Below, one piece after another: positions 4,460 to 50,919 of a stretch of DNA of 64,000 nt (the first letter of the stretch is position 1; every line of letters begins with the position of its first letter). The position numbers and the translations under genes were made by a program. A model generated the notes under the pieces. That model saw nothing but the letters and a program-made list of their open reading frames with translations. It made no database searches and was not told the DNA's origin. The DNA comes from Methylocystis sp. MJC1. Its GTDB lineage: Bacteria; Pseudomonadota; Alphaproteobacteria; Rhizobiales; Beijerinckiaceae. The stretch lies in contig NZ_CP107558.1 in assembly GCF_026427715.1 (NCBI RefSeq), positions 1,215,001 to 1,279,000 of the forward strand, written 5' to 3'.

Positions 4460-4577
4460 ATCCGACTTCCAGCAACATGGGCGCCAGGGCGAGGCTCTCT
4501 TATGCGTCAGCCATGCCTACAATCAAGCAACGGCACAAGGCGACGGAATGAGGGCAATTTGCTCCCCTAAAAGAAAA

Positions 4578-4605
4578 ACGGATCGAGACCCTTGTCTCGA
4601 TCCGT
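4578..4605 (-). terminator. Rho-independent terminator of the Gly/His-rich protein gene
   Basis: An 11-bp perfect stem (ACGGATCGAGA / TCTCGATCCGT) with a 6-base loop. On the minus strand it is followed by TTTTTCTTTT. It lies about 55 bases after the stop of the gene ending at 4662. Confidence 0.88.
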
Positions 4606-4661
4606 ATCTTTAGTGCGCTTTGCGCGCGCATTTCGTCATGCGAGCGGCTGCGGCGTTCGGC

Positions 4662-5015
4662 TTACCAGTGGCCGCCGTGATGACCGCCGTGCCCGCCCCC
4701 TCCGTGGTGGCCGCCATGTCCGCCCCAGCCACCATGGCCTCCCCAGCCGCCGTGATGGCCCCATCCGCCGTGATGGCCCCAGCCATAACCGCCGCCCCAG
4801 CCGTAGCCGCCGTGGTAGTGGCCGGAATGGCTCCACCAACATCTGCCGTAGCGGCAGACCCAGACCGCATGAGCCTGTTGCAGTCCCGTAGCGTCGTTCG
4901 ACTGCGCGACCGCGTCCTTGGAGGCCGCGGGCATGGCCGAGGCGGTGAGCGGATTGCCGGCGAGCGCCGCGATCGCGATAAGCGGCGCAGCCATCTTTTT
5001 GGCGTAAGCGTTCAT
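4662..5015 (-). CDS. Exported Gly/His/Trp-rich repeat protein
   Basis: 117 residues. A signal peptide (MNAYAKKMAAPLIAIAALAGNPLTASAM) is followed by a short region with two Cys (VCRYGRC), then a low-complexity tail of repeated GHHGGW and GGHGGW units ending GGHHGGHW. Dense His in Gly-rich repeats suggests metal binding at or outside the cell surface; that is inference. It is followed by a strong terminator. A long open frame on the opposite strand is only its shadow. The YARHG-domain gene lies about 50 bases upstream on the same strand, so the two may be co-transcribed. Confidence 0.85.
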   Translation of the reverse strand: MNAYAKKMAAPLIAIAALAGNPLTASAMPAASKDAVAQSNDATGLQQAHAVWVCRYGRCWWSHSGHYHGGYGWGGGYGWGHHGGWGHHGGWGGHGGWGGHGGHHGGGGHGGHHGGHW

Positions 5016-5063
5016 GTAAATCCTCTCGGTTACGGGGTTGAAAAAAGCAGAGCCGTCCGGCCG

Positions 5064-5360
5064 CTAGTTGCAGCCGTTGCGGCTTTCCCACATCTGGATT
5101 TCATTCACCCTGCGACGCTCCCATCCGCGCAGGTCGCCATAGGGCGGGAAACAGCCGCGGCCGAATTCGGCGCGGGCTCGTTCGGTCTTGAAGCAGTATC
5201 CATTGCGCGCATAAATCTTGTTGCGCTCATGCCAGAGCTGGCCGCAGGACATTTCTGACGGATGCTGCGCTTTCGCCGGCGCCATCGCCGCAACGAGCGC
5301 CGCTCCGGCGACTACGGCCGCAAAGCTCACGCGCGCGCAAGAGAACCAAAATCTCTTCAT
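5064..5360 (-). CDS. YARHG domain-containing exported protein
   Basis: 98 residues: signal peptide (MKRFWFSCARVSFAAVVAGAALVAA) then a YARHG domain. The pattern is CGQLWHERNKIYARNGYCFKT, a paired Cys, and a C-terminal ERRRVNEIQMWESRNGC. The domain is found in periplasmic or secreted proteins and its biochemical role is unknown. The start follows AGGAGCAAGC on the minus strand. Confidence 0.88.
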   Translation of the reverse strand: MKRFWFSCARVSFAAVVAGAALVAAMAPAKAQHPSEMSCGQLWHERNKIYARNGYCFKTERARAEFGRGCFPPYGDLRGWERRRVNEIQMWESRNGCN

Positions 5361-5786
5361 GCTTGCTCCTTCATGCGCCCCCGAAGAGCAGCCAAAGGAC
5401 CATCGTAACTCTATATTTCTAAAGCATTTTCTTCTGTCGCGGCCTGTGGGGGCATGACCGGACGACGCAATAGTATATCACGCAATGCTAACGAATGGTT
5501 TAAAAACCTCAGCTGTTTTGAACATTGCCCACAAGAGATCGCAGCCCTGCACGAGGCGGAGAGCTGCGCACGCATGCGCGAGATCCGGAGATGGAGAAGG
5601 TAATTGGCGCTCCCTAGGGCCGGCGAGCTATTTAGCTGAGTTGCGGACCCGCATGATCACTGTGTGAGAAACTAATACCGCCCTCGGGAGCGAGAGCGTG
5701 TATTGCTTTCCATCTTTGAAGAAGTGGGTTATTCCCCCGAAGCTATCTGTTGACAACGGATACCTCGCATTGGGGTTGTGGAATAT
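5361..5786. other. Gene-free stretch containing the left end of the tRNA-Glu island
   Basis: About 425 bases with lower GC than the surroundings. It holds the presumed promoter of the YARHG gene and, at 5605-5619, a 15-bp copy of the 3' end of tRNA-Glu. No convincing ORF or RNA seen. Confidence 0.6.
5605..5619. repeat. att-like direct repeat, distal copy (TGGCGCTCCCTAGGG)
   Basis: Identical over 15 bases to 7200-7214, which is the 3' end (CCA, acceptor strand and start of the T arm) of tRNA-Glu. This is the arrangement left by integrase-mediated insertion into a tRNA gene. Confidence 0.65.
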
Positions 5787-7112
5787 TTATAGCTCGTCGG
5801 ACCAGAATTCTTCATAGCCATCAGCCGTCACCTCCTCAGAGAACGGAATGCCGTGGATAACATTCGGGTCTGGATTTTGGCGAAGGCCGTAGCGCAAGTA
5901 TCGATGGTCCTCAAGGTCGAAGCCCGCGATAACTCCCATCCTGTCGAATTTCGCTAGCGTTCCGGCATTTGAGAAAATGACTGCAGAAACATTTTCGGCT
6001 CCCGGAAGATCAAAGAAACCCGATGGGATGGTCTTGTCGCCAAACGTGTGAAACTCGTTCTTCACTGCGCGTGTAATCAACTCTCCGTCAACGATCTCAA
6101 ACTCAATCCTATGTCCATATAGGTATGGCCAGAGAGCTGATTGCGTGTAGGTCATCGAGCCAAGCTCTTCCTCGCTGCTCGGCTTGTGATAGTCAGCAAC
6201 CGCAATAATGAATGGCTTGTTCGCTGTCTTTCCGCGCTCCCAGTAATTCTCGCCGTTTTTGTTCTTTTTGTGCAGTTTGCTCGTGAGGGCAGAACCGAAC
6301 TTCATCGGCATGTAGTCAGCCAAGAACGCCCTCATTTCTTCAGGCGTCTTTGGATTGGGATGCTCGGCGAGGACTCCTGATGTCGACGGGGCGGTTGTGG
6401 TCGCCTCGACTGTGAATGTAATCCCTGGCGCAGAGCAGAGAAAGTCCGGCGCTTCTGGTTGCTCGATATCGAAACCAAGCTCTCTGAAGCTCGCCCACAG
6501 ATATAGCTCCCAGAGGCGCTGGTCGAAAGCACTCCGTTGGAATTCTTTAACGAAATGCGGGTCGCTCGGTGTCAGCCATGGGCCAATCTCTTTAAAAACC
6601 GCACGCGCAGGCTCTCGCCCTGGTGTTTCGATCAATAGCTTGAAATACGGATGCAGGACGGCTGGGTCCGTTCCATCAGGAACTCGTAACAGGTCGATGG
6701 GATAATTAGTCTCGTCGCCTTGATCCCCAAGCGCAACGAAGTCGCCTTCCTCGACGGCGCGCGCGATCCGCTCTCGCAGCGCCTCGGTCGCTCGTGGCTG
6801 GGTTTGGATGCTTGCGTGAATATCGGAGCAACGAAATCGTCCGATTTTGTCCCTGGCAAAGAGCACCCAACCGAAGTCGTTGTCGACACGGTCTCTGAAC
6901 ACAAGGCCCAGCACTCGCTCTTCCGGATCGCTCCAGCAGGAAAGCTCGTCCGAAAGAAGCCGGACATACGCCAGCCGGGCTCCTATCGAAAAGAGATCAA
7001 ACCTAGCCGGGTTCATAGGTTGGCTGAATTTGGCGATCTTAGCGAGACGCTTCGCGCGCTGCTGCGCCTCTCCCATATCCCACCCATTTACGCTTTTTCG
7101 GATTGGCGGCAT
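5787..7112 (-). CDS. Protein of unknown function, possible PD-(D/E)XK nuclease-like core
   Basis: 441 residues, soluble, no signal peptide or membrane segment. I do not recognise a named family with certainty. The middle part (residues about 195-240) reads FDQRLWELYLWASFRELGF, then APDF, then FTVEATTTA: a Glu in a helix, a PD pair and a Glu in a strand, like the restriction-endonuclease fold. The usual catalytic Lys after the last Glu is replaced by Thr. The N-terminal 180 residues and the C-terminal domain have no motif I can name. The start may instead be the ATG 12 codons later (MGEAQQRAKR), which has GGGTGGGAT before it. Lower GC and the att-like flanks point to horizontal transfer. Confidence 0.75.
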   Translation of the reverse strand: MPPIRKSVNGWDMGEAQQRAKRLAKIAKFSQPMNPARFDLFSIGARLAYVRLLSDELSCWSDPEERVLGLVFRDRVDNDFGWVLFARDKIGRFRCSDIHASIQTQPRATEALRERIARAVEEGDFVALGDQGDETNYPIDLLRVPDGTDPAVLHPYFKLLIETPGREPARAVFKEIGPWLTPSDPHFVKEFQRSAFDQRLWELYLWASFRELGFDIEQPEAPDFLCSAPGITFTVEATTTAPSTSGVLAEHPNPKTPEEMRAFLADYMPMKFGSALTSKLHKKNKNGENYWERGKTANKPFIIAVADYHKPSSEEELGSMTYTQSALWPYLYGHRIEFEIVDGELITRAVKNEFHTFGDKTIPSGFFDLPGAENVSAVIFSNAGTLAKFDRMGVIAGFDLEDHRYLRYGLRQNPDPNVIHGIPFSEEVTADGYEEFWSDEL

Positions 7113-7199
7113 CCGATGGCGTGCGCCGATGCCTTTTCCGTATAATTTCCGTATGGGTAGAGATTCCCTACCGAGATCTATTTAATCTCTTGATTTTAA

Positions 7200-7214
7200 T
7201 GGCGCTCCCTAGGG
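7200..7214. repeat. att-like direct repeat, tRNA copy (TGGCGCTCCCTAGGG)
   Basis: The part of the tRNA-Glu gene from the encoded CCA through the acceptor strand into the T stem. Matches 5605-5619 exactly. Confidence 0.65.
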
Positions 7215-7275
7215 GACTCGAACCCCTGTTTTCGCCGTGAGAGGGCGACGTCCTAGACCGCTAGACGAAGGGAGC
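7200..7275 (-). tRNA. tRNA-Glu (anticodon CUC)
   Basis: On the minus strand the acceptor stem GCTCCCT pairs with AGGGAGC. The anticodon loop is CTCTCAC (anticodon CTC), the T arm is AGGGGTTCGAGTCCCCT, and CCA is encoded after discriminator G. All cloverleaf arms can be drawn. Its 3' end is duplicated at 5605-5619. Confidence 0.95.
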
Positions 7276-7378
7276 GGGGAGCCGCTCTATAGACCGCCGA
7301 GTGCGGCTCGGCAAGGGCCTCGCAACGACTTTCGCGCTTTCTTTCGTCGTGATAGCCATCGGGCCTGATTTTGGGACG

Positions 7379-8680
7379 ATGACGATGATAGAGATCCTGA
7401 CCAAAGAAACGCCCGAGGCGCAAAGCCTTGAGACTGCGCTTGCCGCCCTGGGGCGCGCCGCCCGCAAGGCCGCGCGGGCCGTGGCGCTTGCGCCAGCGCA
7501 GGTCAAGGATGAGGCGCTGCGCGTCGCGGCGAGCGAAATCCGTCGTCAGAGCGGCGCGATTCTCGCCGCCAACGCCCTCGACGTCGCGGATGCGCAGGCG
7601 CGCGGAACGGCGGGCTCCTTCATCGATCGGCTGACGCTCGACCCTAGCCGCGTCGAGGCCATCGCGCGGGGCGTCGAGGAGATCGTGGATTTGCCGGACC
7701 CGGTCGGCCGGCTGCTCGCGCGATTCGAGCGGCCGAACGGCCTTGTCATCGAGCGCGTCGCGACGCCGCTCGGCGTCATCGGCGTGATCTATGAGAGCCG
7801 ACCCAATGTCACCGCCGACGCCGGCGCTTTGTGCCTCAAGGCCGGCAACGCCGCGATTCTGCGCGGCGGCTCGGAGAGCCTGCGCACGTCGCGGGCGATC
7901 CATGCCTGTCTCGTCGCGGGGCTGAAGGCCGCCGAGCTGCCGGAGGCGTCGATCTCGCTCATCGAGACCAGCGACCGCGCCGCCGTCGGCGCCATGCTCG
8001 CCGGCCTCGACGGCAATATCGACGTGATCGTGCCGCGCGGCGGCAAGAGCCTTGTCGCGCGCGTCCAGCATGAGGCGCGCGTGCCGGTCTTCGCGCATCT
8101 CGAAGGCATTGTGCATGTCTTCGTCCATAAGGACGCCGATCTCGACATGGCCAAGCGCGTCCTGCTCAACGCCAAGATGCGCCGCACCGGCGTTTGCGGC
8201 GCAGCCGAGACGCTGCTCGTCGACAAGGCTTGCGCGGGGACGCATCTCGCGCCGCTTATTGCCATGCTGATCGACGCCGGCTGCGAAGTGCGCGGCGACG
8301 CGGCGGCGCAGGCCGGGGATGCGCGCGTGAAACCGGCGACGGAGGAGGACTGGCGCGCCGAATATCTCGACGCGATCATCGCCGCGAAAGTGGTCGACGG
8401 CGTCGAGGCGGCGATCGAACATATCGAGACCTATGGCTCGCATCACACCGACTGCATCATCACGCGCGACAACGCTGTGGCGCAGCGTTTCATGCAGGAA
8501 GTCGACTCCGCGATCGTGCTGCACAACGCCTCGACGCAATTTGCGGATGGCGGCGAGTTCGGCTTCGGGGCGGAAATCGGCATCGCGACGGGCCGTATGC
8601 ATGCGCGTGGGCCGGTGGGCGTGGAGCAGCTGACGTCGTTCAAATATCGCGTGCATGGCGAGGGGCAGGTGCGGGGGTAG
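7379..8680 (+). CDS. proA: Gamma-glutamyl phosphate reductase
   Basis: Second step of proline synthesis, reducing gamma-glutamyl phosphate with NADPH to glutamate semialdehyde. 433 residues, aldehyde-dehydrogenase fold, with [22 protein letters not shown], the VPRGGKSL segment and the catalytic Cys near residue 273 in [11 protein letters not shown]. The start at 7379 (MTMIEIL) gives the usual length; a frame open to 7301 adds a stretch not seen in the family. proB is not in the window. nadD follows after a repeat-rich gap with a nuclease gene, so an ancestral proA-nadD cluster has probably been invaded. Confidence 0.95.
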
Positions 8681-10591: not shown

Positions 10592-11938
10592 TCAGCCGGC
10601 TGCGCCGTAGACATCGTAAGCGTCGGCGCGCTCGACCTTCATCGTCACAATGTCGCCCGGCCGCAGGGGGCGGCGGGCGGCGACGAAGGCGGTTCCGTCG
10701 ATCTCCGGCGCGTCGGCCTTGGTGCGGCCCTTGGCGAGCACGCCCGCGGGGCCGCCGCCCGCCTCGTCGATGATGACCTGAAGGCGCTTGCCAACCTTGC
10801 GCTTCATCAGCCGGGCGGAGACCGCCTGCTGCTTCTCCATGAAGCGCTTCCAGCGGTTTTCCTTCACCTCGTCCGGCACGGGCGTAAGGCCGAGGTCATT
10901 CGCCGGGGCGCCGGCGACGGGCTCATATTTGAAGGCGCCGGCGCGGTCGATCTCGGCCTCGTCCAGCCACTGCAGCAGCGTTTCGAAATCCTCCTCGGTC
11001 TCGCCGGGGAAGCCGACGATGAAGGTCGAGCGTAGCGTGAGGTCCGGGCAGGCGGCGCGCCAGCTTTTTATGCGCGCGAGCGTCTTCTCTTCATTGGCGG
11101 GGCGCTTCATGGCCTTCAGAACATTGGGCGCGGCGTGCTGGAAGGGAATGTCGAGATAGGGAAGGACTTTTCCCTCCGCCATCAGGCCGATCGCCTCGTC
11201 GACATGGGGGTAGGGGTAGACGTAATGCAGCCGCACCCAGATCCCGAGCTCGCCGAGCTCCTTGGCAAGATCGAGGAAACGCGCGCGCACGGCGCGGTCG
11301 CCGAACATGCTTTCCGCATAGCGCAGGTCGCGCCCATAGGCGCTCGTGTCCTGCGAGATCACCAGCAATTCCTTCACGCCGGCGCGCGCGAGCTTCTCGG
11401 CCTCGCGCAGCACATCGGCGGCCGGGCGCGAGACGAGCGGCCCACGCAGATGCGGAATGATGCAGAAGGAGCAGCTGTTGTCGCAGCCCTCGGAGATTTT
11501 CAGATAGGCGTAATGGCGCGGCGTGAGCTTCACGCCTTGCTCGGGCACGAGATCGACGAAGGGATCATGCGCGGGCGCGGCGGCGCGGTGCACGGCCTCG
11601 ACGACGCTCTCATATTGCTGCGGGCCGGTGACGGCGAGAACGCCGGGAAAGCGCTCGGTGATGGCCTCGGGCTCGGCGCCCATGCAGCCCGTGACGATGA
11701 CCTTGCCGTTCTCGGCGAGCGCCGCACCGATCGCCTCGAGCGACTCGGCCTTGGCGCTATCGAGAAAGCCGCAGGTGTTGACGACGACGACATCGGCGCC
11801 GGCGTGATGGCGCGCGAGCTCATAGCCCTCGGCGCGCAATCTGGTGACGATGCGCTCGCTGTCGACGAGCGCCTTGGGGCAGCCCAGCGAGACGAAGGAA
11901 ACGCGCGGGGCGGCGGCCGGTTTCTGGTTTTCCTGCAT
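10592..11938 (-). CDS. rimO: Ribosomal protein S12 methylthiotransferase RimO
   Basis: Radical-SAM enzyme adding a methylthio group to an aspartate of ribosomal protein S12. 448 residues. The N-terminal MTTase domain has Cys20 ([12 protein letters not shown]), Cys56 (NTCGF) and Cys85 (GCMG), which hold one 4Fe-4S cluster. The radical-SAM cluster motif is Cys151-x3-Cys155-x2-Cys158 (CDNSCSFC). A TRAM domain lies at the C-terminus. The [12 protein letters not shown] signature separates RimO from MiaB. Confidence 0.95.
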
Positions 11939-12008
11939 CGCGCCCGATTGCCATGGCGCGCGGCGGAAGGCAATGAAAACCGCGCGCCTTTGGGCTCGCT
12001 GGAAAAAT

Positions 12009-12026
12009 GCGCGCCGGAAGGCGCGC
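12009..12026 (-). terminator. Rho-independent terminator after the 21-codon ORF
   Basis: Stem GCGCGCC / GGCGCGC with a 4-base loop, followed on the minus strand by ATTTTTCC. It starts 12 bases after the micropeptide stop. The sequence also resembles part of repeat family E (GCGCGCGGTCCGAA). Confidence 0.75.
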
Positions 12027-12037
12027 GGTCCGAAGGA

Positions 12038-12103
12038 TCAGACCGTCAGGGCGCCGACGAGGGCGTAAATGGCGACGAGCGCGAAAACGAGGGCGTGGAT
12101 CAT
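12038..12103 (-). CDS. Putative 21-residue membrane micropeptide
   Basis: Too short for usual ORF calling. It reads MIHALVFALVAIYALVGAL plus Thr-Val: a single hydrophobic helix. AGGAG lies 9 bases before the ATG, and a stem-loop with T-run lies just after the stop, so the unit looks like a complete small transcript. I cannot assign a function; small one-helix peptides often sit beside larger membrane complexes or act as type-I toxins. Confidence 0.55.
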   Translation of the reverse strand: MIHALVFALVAIYALVGALTV

Positions 12104-12461
12104 GGACGCAAACTCCTACTGGCGCGCGGAAAGCTGCGCGGCAAGGCGATCGAAATTTTCTATTATGGGAACCGGACGGCGGCGCGCCGCTCTGGCTTCT
12201 TGTTAATAGTTTCAGGAGCTTAAGAAAAAGTTTCCATGGGGCCGAATTGAGGGGGTGAAAATTGGACGTCTGCGCCCGCGATGCCGCGTCAAAAACTTTT
12301 TTATCTCGCTGAAACAATAGCTTGATAAGCCTCGGCAAAAATCCTTTGCGCTTCTTGCGCGCGCCACTATGAATAGCCGCGCCGGAGCCTTCCGGGCGCG
12401 AGGGACGCCTTGGCTCGTTAACGCTTGGCGCGCCGCCTCAGCCTTTCAGAAAGACCTGACC
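12104..12461. other. Gene-free stretch between micropeptide and fabH
   Basis: About 360 bases with a local AT-rich patch around 12295-12325 (AAAAACTTTTTTATC). It presumably holds the promoters of the micropeptide (minus) and fabH (plus). An in-frame ATG at 12369 upstream of fabH is discussed under that gene. Confidence 0.5.
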
Positions 12462-13445
12462 TTGCCGAATTCCATTGTTCTCGGGACTGGATCCTATGCG
12501 CCCGAGCGCGTCCTCTCCAACGCCGATCTGGAGAAGATGGTCGCCACCAACAGCGAGTGGATCGTCAGCCGCACGGGCATCAAGGAGCGGCATATCGCCG
12601 CCGACCATGAGGCGACCTCTGACCTCGCAGCGGCGGCCGCGCGCAAGGCGCTGGATTTTGCGGGCGTCAGCGCGGCTGAAGTGGATATGATCGTCGTCGG
12701 CACAGTCACCGGCGACACGCCGACGCCCTCTTGCGCCGCCTATGTGCAGGAGCTGCTCGGCGCGCGGAACGCCTTCTGTTTCGACGTCGCCGCCGCCTGC
12801 GCGGGCTCGCTCTATGGGCTCACCATCGCCGACCAATTTATCCGCACCGGCATGGTCAAGCGCGCGCTGGTCATCGGCGCCGAGACACTGAGCCGCTATG
12901 TGGACTGGACCAACCGCGAGACCTGCGTGCTCTTCGGCGACGCGGCGGGCGCGATCCTGCTCGGCGCGACGGAGGAGGCGGGCCACGGCCTGTTGGCGGC
13001 GACGCTCCGCACGGATGGCTCTTTGACGAAAATTCTCGGCATCCCCGGCGGCGGCAGCCGTCTTCCGCTGTCGGAAGAGATGCTCGCGACCAAAGACAGC
13101 AAGATCAAAATGCGCGGCCGCGAAGTCTATAGGGTCGCAACAAGGCTGCTGCCAGAGGTGGTGGCGGAGACCCTGGCCAAGGCCGGGCTTTCTCCGGATG
13201 ACGTGACCCACGTCATCGCGCACCAAGCCAATCAGCGCATCATCGAGTCCGCGCTCGACAATCTCGGCGTGCCCCGCGACAAATGCTGGATCAACATCGA
13301 CCGCTTCGGCAATACGTCGAGCGCCTCCATGCCGATCACGCTGGACGAGGCCAATCGCGCCGGCAAGCTGAAGAAGGGCGACATCATCGCCATGATGGCG
13401 ATCGGCGCCGGCATGACCTGGGGCGGCGCCGTTCTGCGCTGGTGA
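12462..13445 (+). CDS. fabH: Beta-ketoacyl-[acyl-carrier-protein] synthase III
   Basis: Starts fatty-acid synthesis by condensing acetyl-CoA with malonyl-ACP. From the TTG at 12462 the protein has 327 residues, the family length, with catalytic Cys near residue 113 (VAAACAGSLYGL), His in VIAHQANQRI and Asn in FGNTSSASMP. The frame is open to an ATG at 12369 that would add 31 residues without family support. It is not preceded by plsX or followed by an IHF gene as in many relatives. A KASIII paralogue cannot be excluded. Confidence 0.9.
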   Translation: MPNSIVLGTGSYAPERVLSNADLEKMVATNSEWIVSRTGIKERHIAADHEATSDLAAAAARKALDFAGVSAAEVDMIVVGTVTGDTPTPSCAAYVQELLGARNAFCFDVAAACAGSLYGLTIADQFIRTGMVKRALVIGAETLSRYVDWTNRETCVLFGDAAGAILLGATEEAGHGLLAATLRTDGSLTKILGIPGGGSRLPLSEEMLATKDSKIKMRGREVYRVATRLLPEVVAETLAKAGLSPDDVTHVIAHQANQRIIESALDNLGVPRDKCWINIDRFGNTSSASMPITLDEANRAGKLKKGDIIAMMAIGAGMTWGGAVLRW

Positions 13446-17327: not shown

Positions 17328-18281
17328 ATGAGCGCTCCGTCCGCCGCGCTTCTGCTCGACGCCTTCCTCGACATGCAGGCGGCCGAACGCGGCGCGGCGC
17401 ACAACACGCTGGACGCCTATCGGCGCGATCTGACGGACTATACCGATTTCCTTCGCGACCAGGGCCGGGGTCCGGTCGGCGCCACCATCGAGGATTTGCG
17501 CGCCTATCTCGTGGCGCTCGACGCGCGCGGTATGGCGCGCGCCACAGTGGCGCGGCGGCGCTCGGCGCTGCGGCAGTTCCACAAATTCCTCTATGTCGAC
17601 CGCCATCGCGGCGATGATCCGGCCGCTGCGCTGGAAGGTCCCCGGCTGGTGCGCAATGCGCCCGGGGTGATGTCGGTCGACGAGGTCGACCGCCTGCTCG
17701 CCACGGCGCGTGAGGGATTGGATGACGAAAAGCGCCCCCTGCGCGAGCGGCTGCGCGCCGCGCGTCTCTACGCGCTTCTGGAGACGCTTTACGCCACCGG
17801 ACTGCGCGTGTCGGAGCTGGTGTCGCTGCCCAAAAGCGCGGCGCGGGCGCGCGATCCCTTTGTCACGATCAAGGGCAAGGGCGGGCGCGAGCGGCTGGCG
17901 CCCTTGACCCAGCGTGCCAAGCGCGCGCTCGTCGATTACCGCAAGCTCCTTGAGGCCGTTTCGCCTGCGCTCGCGGAAGGGCCTTTTCTCTTCCCGGCCG
18001 ACAGCGACAGCGGTCATCTGACCCGGCAGGCTTTCGCGCGCGAGCTCAAAACGCTCGGCGTCGCGGCCGGATTATCCGCGGCGCAGGTCCATCCGCATGC
18101 GCTGCGCCATGCTTTCGCCAGCCACCTGCTGCAGAACGGCGCGGATTTACGGGTGGTGCAGGAGTTGCTCGGCCATGCCGATATTGCGACCACGCAAATC
18201 TATACGCATGTGCTCGACGAAAGAATGCGGGCCATGGTTCGCGACCTGCATCCGCTCACTGATGAGTCTCGTTCAGAGTAA
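17328..18281 (+). CDS. xerD: Tyrosine recombinase XerD
   Basis: Site-specific recombinase that with XerC resolves chromosome dimers at dif. 317 residues: N-terminal SAM-like core-binding domain, then the catalytic domain with Arg in TGLRVSEL, Lys in KGKGGRER, HALRHAFA, GHAD and the nucleophile Tyr in TTQIYTHV. xerC is at 49927-50919. The chromosomal context speaks against a phage integrase. Confidence 0.93.
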   Translation: MSAPSAALLLDAFLDMQAAERGAAHNTLDAYRRDLTDYTDFLRDQGRGPVGATIEDLRAYLVALDARGMARATVARRRSALRQFHKFLYVDRHRGDDPAAALEGPRLVRNAPGVMSVDEVDRLLATAREGLDDEKRPLRERLRAARLYALLETLYATGLRVSELVSLPKSAARARDPFVTIKGKGGRERLAPLTQRAKRALVDYRKLLEAVSPALAEGPFLFPADSDSGHLTRQAFARELKTLGVAAGLSAAQVHPHALRHAFASHLLQNGADLRVVQELLGHADIATTQIYTHVLDERMRAMVRDLHPLTDESRSE

Positions 18282-49926: not shown

Positions 49927-50919
49927 ATGCGCCAACCCTCCTCTCGAAACGCCCGTCCGGCTCCAAAGCCTTTGCCCGACGCCGCGCGGTTTTCCGCCGC
50001 GCCGCAAATCGCGCGAGAGGCCGGTTTTTGGCTGCAGGCGCTCGCGGGCGAAAAACGCGCCTCGCGCCACACGATCGACGGCTATACGCGCGACGTCGCA
50101 GGCTTTCTGGCCTTTCTCACGGAACATCTCGGCGCGAAGCCAGATTCCGCGGCGCTCATCGCATTGCAGCCGGCGGATTTGCGCGCCTATCTGGCGAAGC
50201 GCCGCAATGAGGGGCTGGAGAACCGCTCGCTGCTGCGGGCGCTCGCGGCCATCCGCAATTTCCTGCGGTTCCTGGAGAAGAAGGGACTCGCCAAAACCGA
50301 CCTCTTCGGCGCCGTGCGCGCGCCCAAGAAGCCGCACAGCCTGCCCAAGGCGCTCGCCGTCCAAGACGCCCGCGATCTCATCGACCCGGAGCAGCGGGCG
50401 GGCGAGGCGCGTGAACCCTGGGTGCTGGCGCGAGACGCCGCCGTGCTCGCTTTGCTCTATGGCGTGGGGCTGCGCATCTCCGAGGCGCTGTCGATCGCGC
50501 ACGCCGAGGCGCCTATTGGCCGCATCGACCGGATGACGATCACCGGCAAGGGGAACAAGACGCGCACGCTTCCCGTGATCGAGCCCGTGCGGCGGGCGAT
50601 CGAAGCCTATCTTGCGATCTGCCCCTATGAACTCTCCGGCGGCCCGCTGTTCGTGGGCGTCAAGGGCGGGCCGTTGTCGCCGCGAATCGTGCAACTCGCC
50701 GTTCAGCGCCTGCGCGGGGCGCTGGGCCTGCCCGACAGCGCGACGCCGCATGCGCTACGCCACTCTTTCGCGACGCATCTTCTCGGGCGCGGCGGCGATC
50801 TGCGCACGATCCAGGAGCTTCTGGGGCACGTCTCGTTGTCGACGACGCAGATTTATACGGCCGTCGACAAGAAGCGCCTGCTCGATGCTTATAAGTCAGC
50901 ACATCCGAGAGCGGATTAA
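49927..50919 (+). CDS. xerC: Tyrosine recombinase XerC
   Basis: Partner of XerD in chromosome-dimer resolution. 330 residues with core-binding domain (ASRHTIDGYTRDVAGFLAFL) and catalytic residues Arg (YGVGLRISEAL), Lys (TGKGNKTR), HALRHSFATHLL, LLGHVSLSTTQIYT with the Tyr nucleophile. The N-terminal basic extension (MRQPSSRNARPAPKP) is long, so a later start is possible. Preceded by repeats. Confidence 0.92.
   Translation: MRQPSSRNARPAPKPLPDAARFSAAPQIAREAGFWLQALAGEKRASRHTIDGYTRDVAGFLAFLTEHLGAKPDSAALIALQPADLRAYLAKRRNEGLENRSLLRALAAIRNFLRFLEKKGLAKTDLFGAVRAPKKPHSLPKALAVQDARDLIDPEQRAGEAREPWVLARDAAVLALLYGVGLRISEALSIAHAEAPIGRIDRMTITGKGNKTRTLPVIEPVRRAIEAYLAICPYELSGGPLFVGVKGGPLSPRIVQLAVQRLRGALGLPDSATPHALRHSFATHLLGRGGDLRTIQELLGHVSLSTTQIYTAVDKKRLLDAYKSAHPRAD

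Follow-up and report, generated by a model that had tools for sequence, protein, structure and literature searches.

An integrase-free one-gene island at a Methylocystis tRNA-Glu, probably the remnant of a phage-like element that kept its defence cargo

Overall layout of the island

The sequence analysed here, termed the window, is a stretch of 64,000 nucleotides from Methylocystis sp. MJC1 (contig NZ_CP107558.1, positions 1,215,001 to 1,279,000), in which a short island of low GC content adjoins an intact tRNA-Glu. Its features are listed below in window coordinates, with G numbers denoting genomes.

4500–5604, no strand: left chromosomal flank, syntenic with G187 (empty site) and G212 (45-kb island)
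5605–5619, minus strand: displaced 3' end of tRNA-Glu, attR-like, left island edge, reading TGGCGCTCCCTAGGG on the plus strand and placed by comparison with the empty site of G187
5628–5786, minus strand: same-frame continuation of the gene beyond its stop, 52 codons, recognisable as the C-terminal tail of the family
5787–7112, minus strand: PD-T7-1-family gene, 441 residues as called, with an in-frame stop that precedes the conserved C-terminus of the family
7134–7143 and 7145–7154, plus strand: paired repeats TTTTCCGTAT and ATTTCCGTAT, proposed arm-type integrase sites, common to P0122-type elements
7190–7199, plus strand: TTGATTTTAA, adjoining the tRNA copy and resembling what several other islands at this tRNA have at their tRNA side
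7200–7275, minus strand: intact tRNA-Glu(CTC), the last 15 bases of which (7200–7214) form the attL-like copy and the right island edge

The 15-mer occurs as exact copies at 5605–5619 and 7200–7214, 1,595 bp from repeat to repeat, with no other exact copy in the window. A count over the whole genome (4,538,495 bases, at most one mismatch) gave these two copies alone, compared to none for a reversed control pattern. The repeat reported by the first-pass annotation is thus a unique pair, and a chance origin is ruled out by its being confined to two copies in 4.54 Mb at this tolerance. An intact tRNA and a displaced 3' fragment in the same orientation bound a low-GC stretch, which is the arrangement that defines a tRNA-targeting island. 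The GC content of the island is 53.2%, compared to 61.4% and 65.9% in the 5 kb to its left and right, respectively.

The same annotation had described a single lower-GC gene between the copies and the lack of an integrase, both of which hold. The island contains one long minus-strand gene (5787–7112), which the shorter open reading frames in other frames overlap, and none of the 12 PF00589 matches of the genome, the signature of tyrosine recombinases, falls inside it. No integration or transfer gene was found, the sole gene belonging to the PD-T7-1 family and having no Pfam or NCBIfam match above cut-off. This gene lies downstream of tRNA-Glu and runs in the same direction, an orientation suggesting that it may be transcribed with the tRNA or from just behind it; a promoter scan of 5560–7400 returned no candidate.

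The PD-T7-1-family gene and its premature stop

PADLOC assigned the product of 5787–7112 to PD-T7-1 with an E-value of 7.2e-127 over profile positions 3–399 of 452, in addition to a weaker second assignment to PD-T7-5. The intact homologue P0002, 89% identical to the window protein, matches the same profile over positions 3–448. The only Pfam match of the window product, to the putative nuclease YbcO, is below cut-off (E 0.028); NCBIfam gave no match, and PHROGs gave phrog_8571, of which the function is not known. A structural model of P0002 (pLDDT 89.7) retrieved nothing below 1e-3 in a Foldseek search. The C-terminal half of this model weakly resembles restriction-endonuclease-like structures, among unrelated structures of similar score, and a PD-(D/E)XK nuclease fold in this half may serve as a lead only.

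The closest homologues have 483–484 residues, or 464 with a later start. Their start codon corresponds to the window codon at 7076, from which the window frame ends after residue 429 (441 as called), i.e. at an in-frame stop about 52 codons short of the usual end of the family. Beyond this stop the frame stays open for 52 more codons, to a second stop at 5628–5630 that lies 8 bp from the left repeat. In an alignment of 44 proteins, the near-invariant P0002 residues Q430, F432–P435, A437 and P440 all fall beyond the window's stop.

The homologues P0002, P0003, P0005 and P0006 are 80–89% identical to the window protein. Identity to P0002 is 75.0% in the window's tail beyond the stop and 88.6% in the body. 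The intact homologues P0003, P0005 and P0006, the last assigned to Methylocystis sp. in its source, show tail and body identities to P0002 of 69.8 and 83.9%, 65.4 and 81.8%, and 64.2 and 82.4%, respectively. Against the same three proteins the window tail reaches 59.6, 59.6 and 57.7%, which is 6–10 points under the values of the P0002 tail. Since the tails of intact homologues fall off likewise, the window tail is not clearly relaxed, and the premature stop could be of recent origin. Judged from its reading frame, the gene has begun to decay. The product is a presumed anti-phage effector, whose defence function is probably weakened or lost because the conserved C-terminus is missing.

PD-T7-1 of E. 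coli is described as giving stronger protection from T-even phages than from T7, and its homologues are placed in a defence island or prophage (excerpt of PMC9519451). Similar to that system, the family match spans nearly the whole window gene; unlike it, as far as the excerpt describes it, the window gene stands alone and has lost its C-terminus to the stop.

Relatives of the gene are rare. They were found in three of the 39 genus genomes, the window's own included; the other two are 52% and 35% identical, so that no other genus genome has the gene at more than 52% identity. Thirteen of 298 family genomes contain relatives, some of them weak partial matches. A protein scan of viral contigs gave two loci, at 61 and 63% identity, neither with a tRNA or with a match to the integrases used as queries, and a scan of viral contigs for the end signature gave no match. 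Among the contexts of 19 PD-T7-1 loci, two include a tRNA and two give a hit with any of the six integrases used as queries, one of these hits being weak (E 8e-4). At L037 (5663–8465), a homologue of 60% identity sits 258 bp behind a tRNA-Ser, has the same orientation and precedes a DUF4238 gene; no second copy of the tRNA-Ser end was found within this 13.3-kb locus.

Empty and occupied sites in related genomes

Comparison with related genomes revealed both an empty and a differently occupied form of the junction. In G187 the left flank of the window runs directly into an intact tRNA-Glu, with one 15-mer among the matches listed, and the window without its insert is 91.2% identical to G187 over 1,531 bp spanning the junction. 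In G212 the flank is followed at the same junction by the 15-mer and then by an integrase-bearing island that extends for about 45 kb up to the tRNA. The left flank near the junction is about 82–87% identical to both genomes. Among the first 40 relatives, which do not include these two, the left flank gave scattered gene matches without synteny at tRNA-Glu. Because G187 is empty, G212 is filled differently and the gene is rare in genus and family genomes, we conclude from these comparisons that the 1.6-kb stretch is an insertion.

The first-pass annotation had inferred such an insertion and proposed to look in relatives for an empty site and for other cargo; G187, with its single 15-mer and the same left flank, and G212 provide the two, and the empty site supports the inferred history. 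It had also named a 15-mer upstream of the locus in strains without the gene as a sign against insertion. Second copies of this kind do occur, in G212, in G021 and in G302 away from its 52% homologue. They do not speak against the insertion, since they edge other integrase-bearing islands.

Other islands and two integrase families at the same tRNA-Glu

A search of 397 family genomes for the 15-mer showed, by hand count, at least 16 genomes with two same-strand 15-mers on one contig, at spacings of 1.6–45 kb. Among the matches listed, the window has the shortest spacing (1,595 bp), the next being 6,862 bp. Repeat length was measured in all 16 listed genomes. G347 was dropped as an island at tRNA-Glu, its two copies having no intact tRNA in the stretch.

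Two integrase types recur at this tRNA. P0121-type integrases adjoin the tRNA in G021, G302 and G212, each with a repeat of 15 bp, to which G212 adds two matching outer bases. In G018, the flank that immediately adjoins the tRNA matches the outer flank of the G021 island, which gives a second empty site. P0122-related integrases, 48–86% identical to one another, start at a distance of 100–181 bp from where the far copy begins, and the repeats of P0122-type elements measure 44–48 bp in G182, G008, G020, G323 and G017; in the last, the tRNA is on one contig and the far copy on another. The G182 element spans 25.4 kb within 26.6 kb and has a 44-bp repeat, and G140 has a P0122-related integrase with an imperfect far copy. 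The remaining repeats are 17 bp in G301, 16 bp in G051 and 46–50 bp in G359, G406, G076 and G220.

The gene content of several of these islands is phage-like. The G021 island (L065, 203–10736; 10.5 kb), bounded by the exact 15-mer, encodes an integrase, a fused head protease-capsid protein, a CBASS pair of a patatin-like effector and a nucleotidyltransferase, and a small gene whose matches, to MerR and small terminase, are weak. The G302 island (L106, 1025–11450; 10.4 kb), bounded likewise, encodes an integrase, a portal, a prohead protease, a capsid protein fused to HNH and a large terminase. Besides the integrase, seven open reading frames were scanned in each, several matching nothing and none matching a tail family. 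In G017, two partial tRNA copies and the tRNA lie on three separate contigs, which suggests stacked elements; the contig beside the tRNA encodes a small terminase, a Holliday junction resolvase and a helicase-like fragment. Judged from these genes, phage-satellite-like islands occupy the tRNA-Glu site, and one of these carries a defence system. The G021 and G302 islands encode an integrase and head genes, as do phage satellites including the capsid-forming PICI (excerpts of PMC11389934 and PMC9122126); unlike these satellites, the window island has no satellite gene at all.

A further short stretch is found in G016 (L072, about 11895–13083), where 1.2 kb separates the flank from the same tRNA without a second 15-mer. 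No integrase was recognised by eye among the open reading frames listed for it. Its tRNA side contains paired ATTCGACG repeats and TTATTGATTTTAC, an end resembling other tRNA-side ends. This suggests a second small leftover, and that such decay recurs at this tRNA.

The two ends of the window island differ in type

At its tRNA side, the window island has the sequence TTTTCCGTATAATTTCCGTATG ... TTGATTTTAA, which then passes into the tRNA copy. This end carries paired TTTCCGTAT repeats, similar to those found at both ends of P0122-type elements, and this pair is proposed to consist of arm-type integrase sites. Nine of the 397 family genomes, the window's own included, have TTCCGTAT 40–56 bases before the tRNA copy; in one of the nine, G140, it lies outside the far copy. 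Within the 26.6 kb of G182, the 8-mer TTCCGTAT occurs on that strand at the two element ends only, and the integrase start has TTTTCCGTATAA next to it in both G182 and G017. In 20000 base shuffles of the last 100 bp of the island, the paired motif never appeared and a single TTCCGTAT appeared 69 times.

At the far end of the window island there is no copy of TTTCCGTAT-type repeats. The other P0122-type traits are missing there too, the repeat being 15 bp compared to 44 bp and no integrase being present. The island shares the 15-bp tRNA repeat of P0121-type elements. These also have the end repeat GTTTGGG, which G021 shows at both +54 and -68, G212 at +54 and G302 at -68. Neither GTTTGGG nor its reverse complement is present in the window island. 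Since the pair lies at the tRNA side only and GTTTGGG is absent, the near end is of P0122 type and the far end a bare 15 bp.

Elsewhere, other paired repeats lie near the same place, e.g. TTACACA pairs in G020 and G323, and several elements (e.g. G301, G021 and G302) have no clear repeat pair near the tRNA-side end. Between the paired repeats and the tRNA copy (7155–7189), the window has hairpin-like sequences, GGTAG..CTACC and GAGAT..ATCTC; by eye, other elements have seemingly different hairpin-like sequences there.

Integrases elsewhere in the genome

No close relative of the P0121 or P0122 integrases was found in the genome of the window. The nearest P0121-type gene is 36% identical, has an internal stop and lies beside tRNA-Cys, and the nearest P0122-type match has an E-value of 2.4e-6. 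Ten PF00589 matches exist besides two probable Xer genes, the comparison of integrases having covered the two families at this tRNA. The two strongest tyrosine-recombinase matches of the genome lie in the window, at 17670–18221 and 50428–50874, and have matches of like score in relatives; they are probably XerC and XerD.

Proposed origin of the island

We propose that the island is probably a deletion remnant of a phage-like element, a prophage or phage satellite, that targeted tRNA-Glu with a P0122-type integrase and of which the defence cargo was kept. Such an element would integrate into tRNA-Glu and restore the tRNA, leaving the displaced 44-bp tRNA fragment at its far end, as seen in relatives. 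A later single deletion would then have run from inside this fragment to just behind the defence gene, taking the integrase, the far-end binding sites and all other genes. What would be left is the tRNA-side end with its paired TTTCCGTAT, one PD-T7-1-type gene and 15 bases of the fragment.

This account explains why the outer edge is exact, why the near end is of P0122 type, why the integrase and the far sites are missing and why the repeat is short. The deletion itself was not observed, as the searches gave no longer parent element in which PD-T7-1 adjoins the tRNA; the genomic sites of P0002 and P0006 were outside the comparison. Two observations argue against a deletion remnant: 15 of 44 bp would have been left by chance alone, exactly the length measured in three P0121-type elements, and the far edge lies 8 bp behind the natural end of the frame, which is tidy for a random deletion. 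A simple P0121-type element was ruled out, as the integrase and the GTTTGGG ends are missing.

A composite origin, which we consider unlikely, would account for the repeat length differently. A P0121-type element with PD-T7-1 at its far end would have been followed by a P0122-type element inserted between it and the tRNA, before a deletion fused both, so that the far edge derives from the former and the tRNA-side end from the latter. Repeats of 15 bp do mark the P0121-type elements of G021, G302 and G212, the last at the very same junction; the G021 island bears defence cargo in the form of CBASS, and the G017 contigs suggest that elements can stack. The absence of the P0121-type end repeat GTTTGGG from the window island and the larger number of events required both weigh against it.

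The first-pass annotation had offered two origins, a remnant with kept cargo and a satellite moved by a foreign integrase, of which the former is favoured here and the latter disfavoured. A compact one-gene unit with attachment ends of its own, moved in trans by an integrase encoded elsewhere, would fit the tidy anatomy (15-bp edges, 8 bp to the natural end of the gene, paired putative sites at one end) and the precise empty site of G187, and Dehalococcoides offers a precedent of islands that share a site and have no integrase (excerpt of PMC3146451). We nevertheless find this quite unlikely: the far end has no repeats of either integrase family, the 15 bp fall short of the 44-bp identity of the family whose sites the island bears, the genome has no close relative of either integrase, and among the 39 genus genomes none besides the window's own carries the gene above 52% identity. 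The remnant is preferred over a satellite because, compared to matching elements, the far end is short of 29 of the 44 tRNA bases and has none of the repeats, and because the genome has no close integrase of the two families compared. By this reading the 15-bp repeat may be the leftover of a longer duplication.

A bolder version, in which a minimal one-gene defence cassette at tRNA-Glu is moved in trans by the integrases of resident phage satellites, seems to us decidedly improbable; if true, the cassette would be the tRNA counterpart of MITEs or integron cassettes, and would have been overlooked because island finders such as Islander require an integrase and at least 2 kb. An unrelated event, i.e. 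a tRNA-Glu region imported by homologous recombination from a different strain, or the action of a recombinase outside those considered, with the repeat incidental, is very improbable: local exchange is possible given that the left flank near the junction is only about 82–87% identical to G212 and G187, and the genome does encode tyrosine recombinases besides the two families compared, but the edges fall exactly at the tRNA 3' end and at the junction used in G212.

Under the preferred deletion account, the remnant is probably immobile now, because the genome has no close integrase of the P0121 or P0122 family.

Comparison with known elements and significance

Elements without integration genes but with their att sites kept have been termed CIMEs (PMC5704250), and fifteen ssrA islands of Dehalococcoides have no integration module (PMC3146451). 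As described in the excerpts of both sources, the window island resembles these elements in its position at a tRNA or tmRNA 3' end, in the loss of integration genes and in the flanking direct repeats that were kept. It differs from both in its size of 1.6 kb and its single gene, and in that the annotated islands at tRNA-Glu are phage-like and not conjugative. Of the att sites by which CIMEs are recognised, the 15-bp repeats are retained at both edges and the paired putative sites at the tRNA side only; unlike in a CIME, one edge has no integrase-type sites, and mobilization may therefore be doubtful. On this comparison, the window island is a CIME-like remnant, of a known kind and unusually small.

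Islander rejects candidates that have no integrase or are shorter than 2 kb, and separates anticodon-centred sites from those in the T-stem region (excerpt of PMC4383910). Similar to the islands that Islander reports, the window island ends in an intact tRNA and a displaced 3' fragment in the same orientation; unlike them, it has no integrase and is below 2 kb, and is thus invisible to Islander as the excerpt describes it. A partial literature search, covering titles and the starts of abstracts, found no paper on one-gene tRNA islands.

Read as such a remnant, the island is a sequence-level case of a mobile element able to shrink to its defence cargo, for which related genomes supply an unoccupied site, an entire element at that junction and the end signature of the likely parent. 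As leftovers this small are filtered out by at least one island catalogue (Islander, excerpt of PMC4383910), their number would have to be counted directly, which is feasible. Altogether, one tRNA emerges as a hot spot common to at least two integrase families and to phage-satellite-like islands, one of which carries a defence system.
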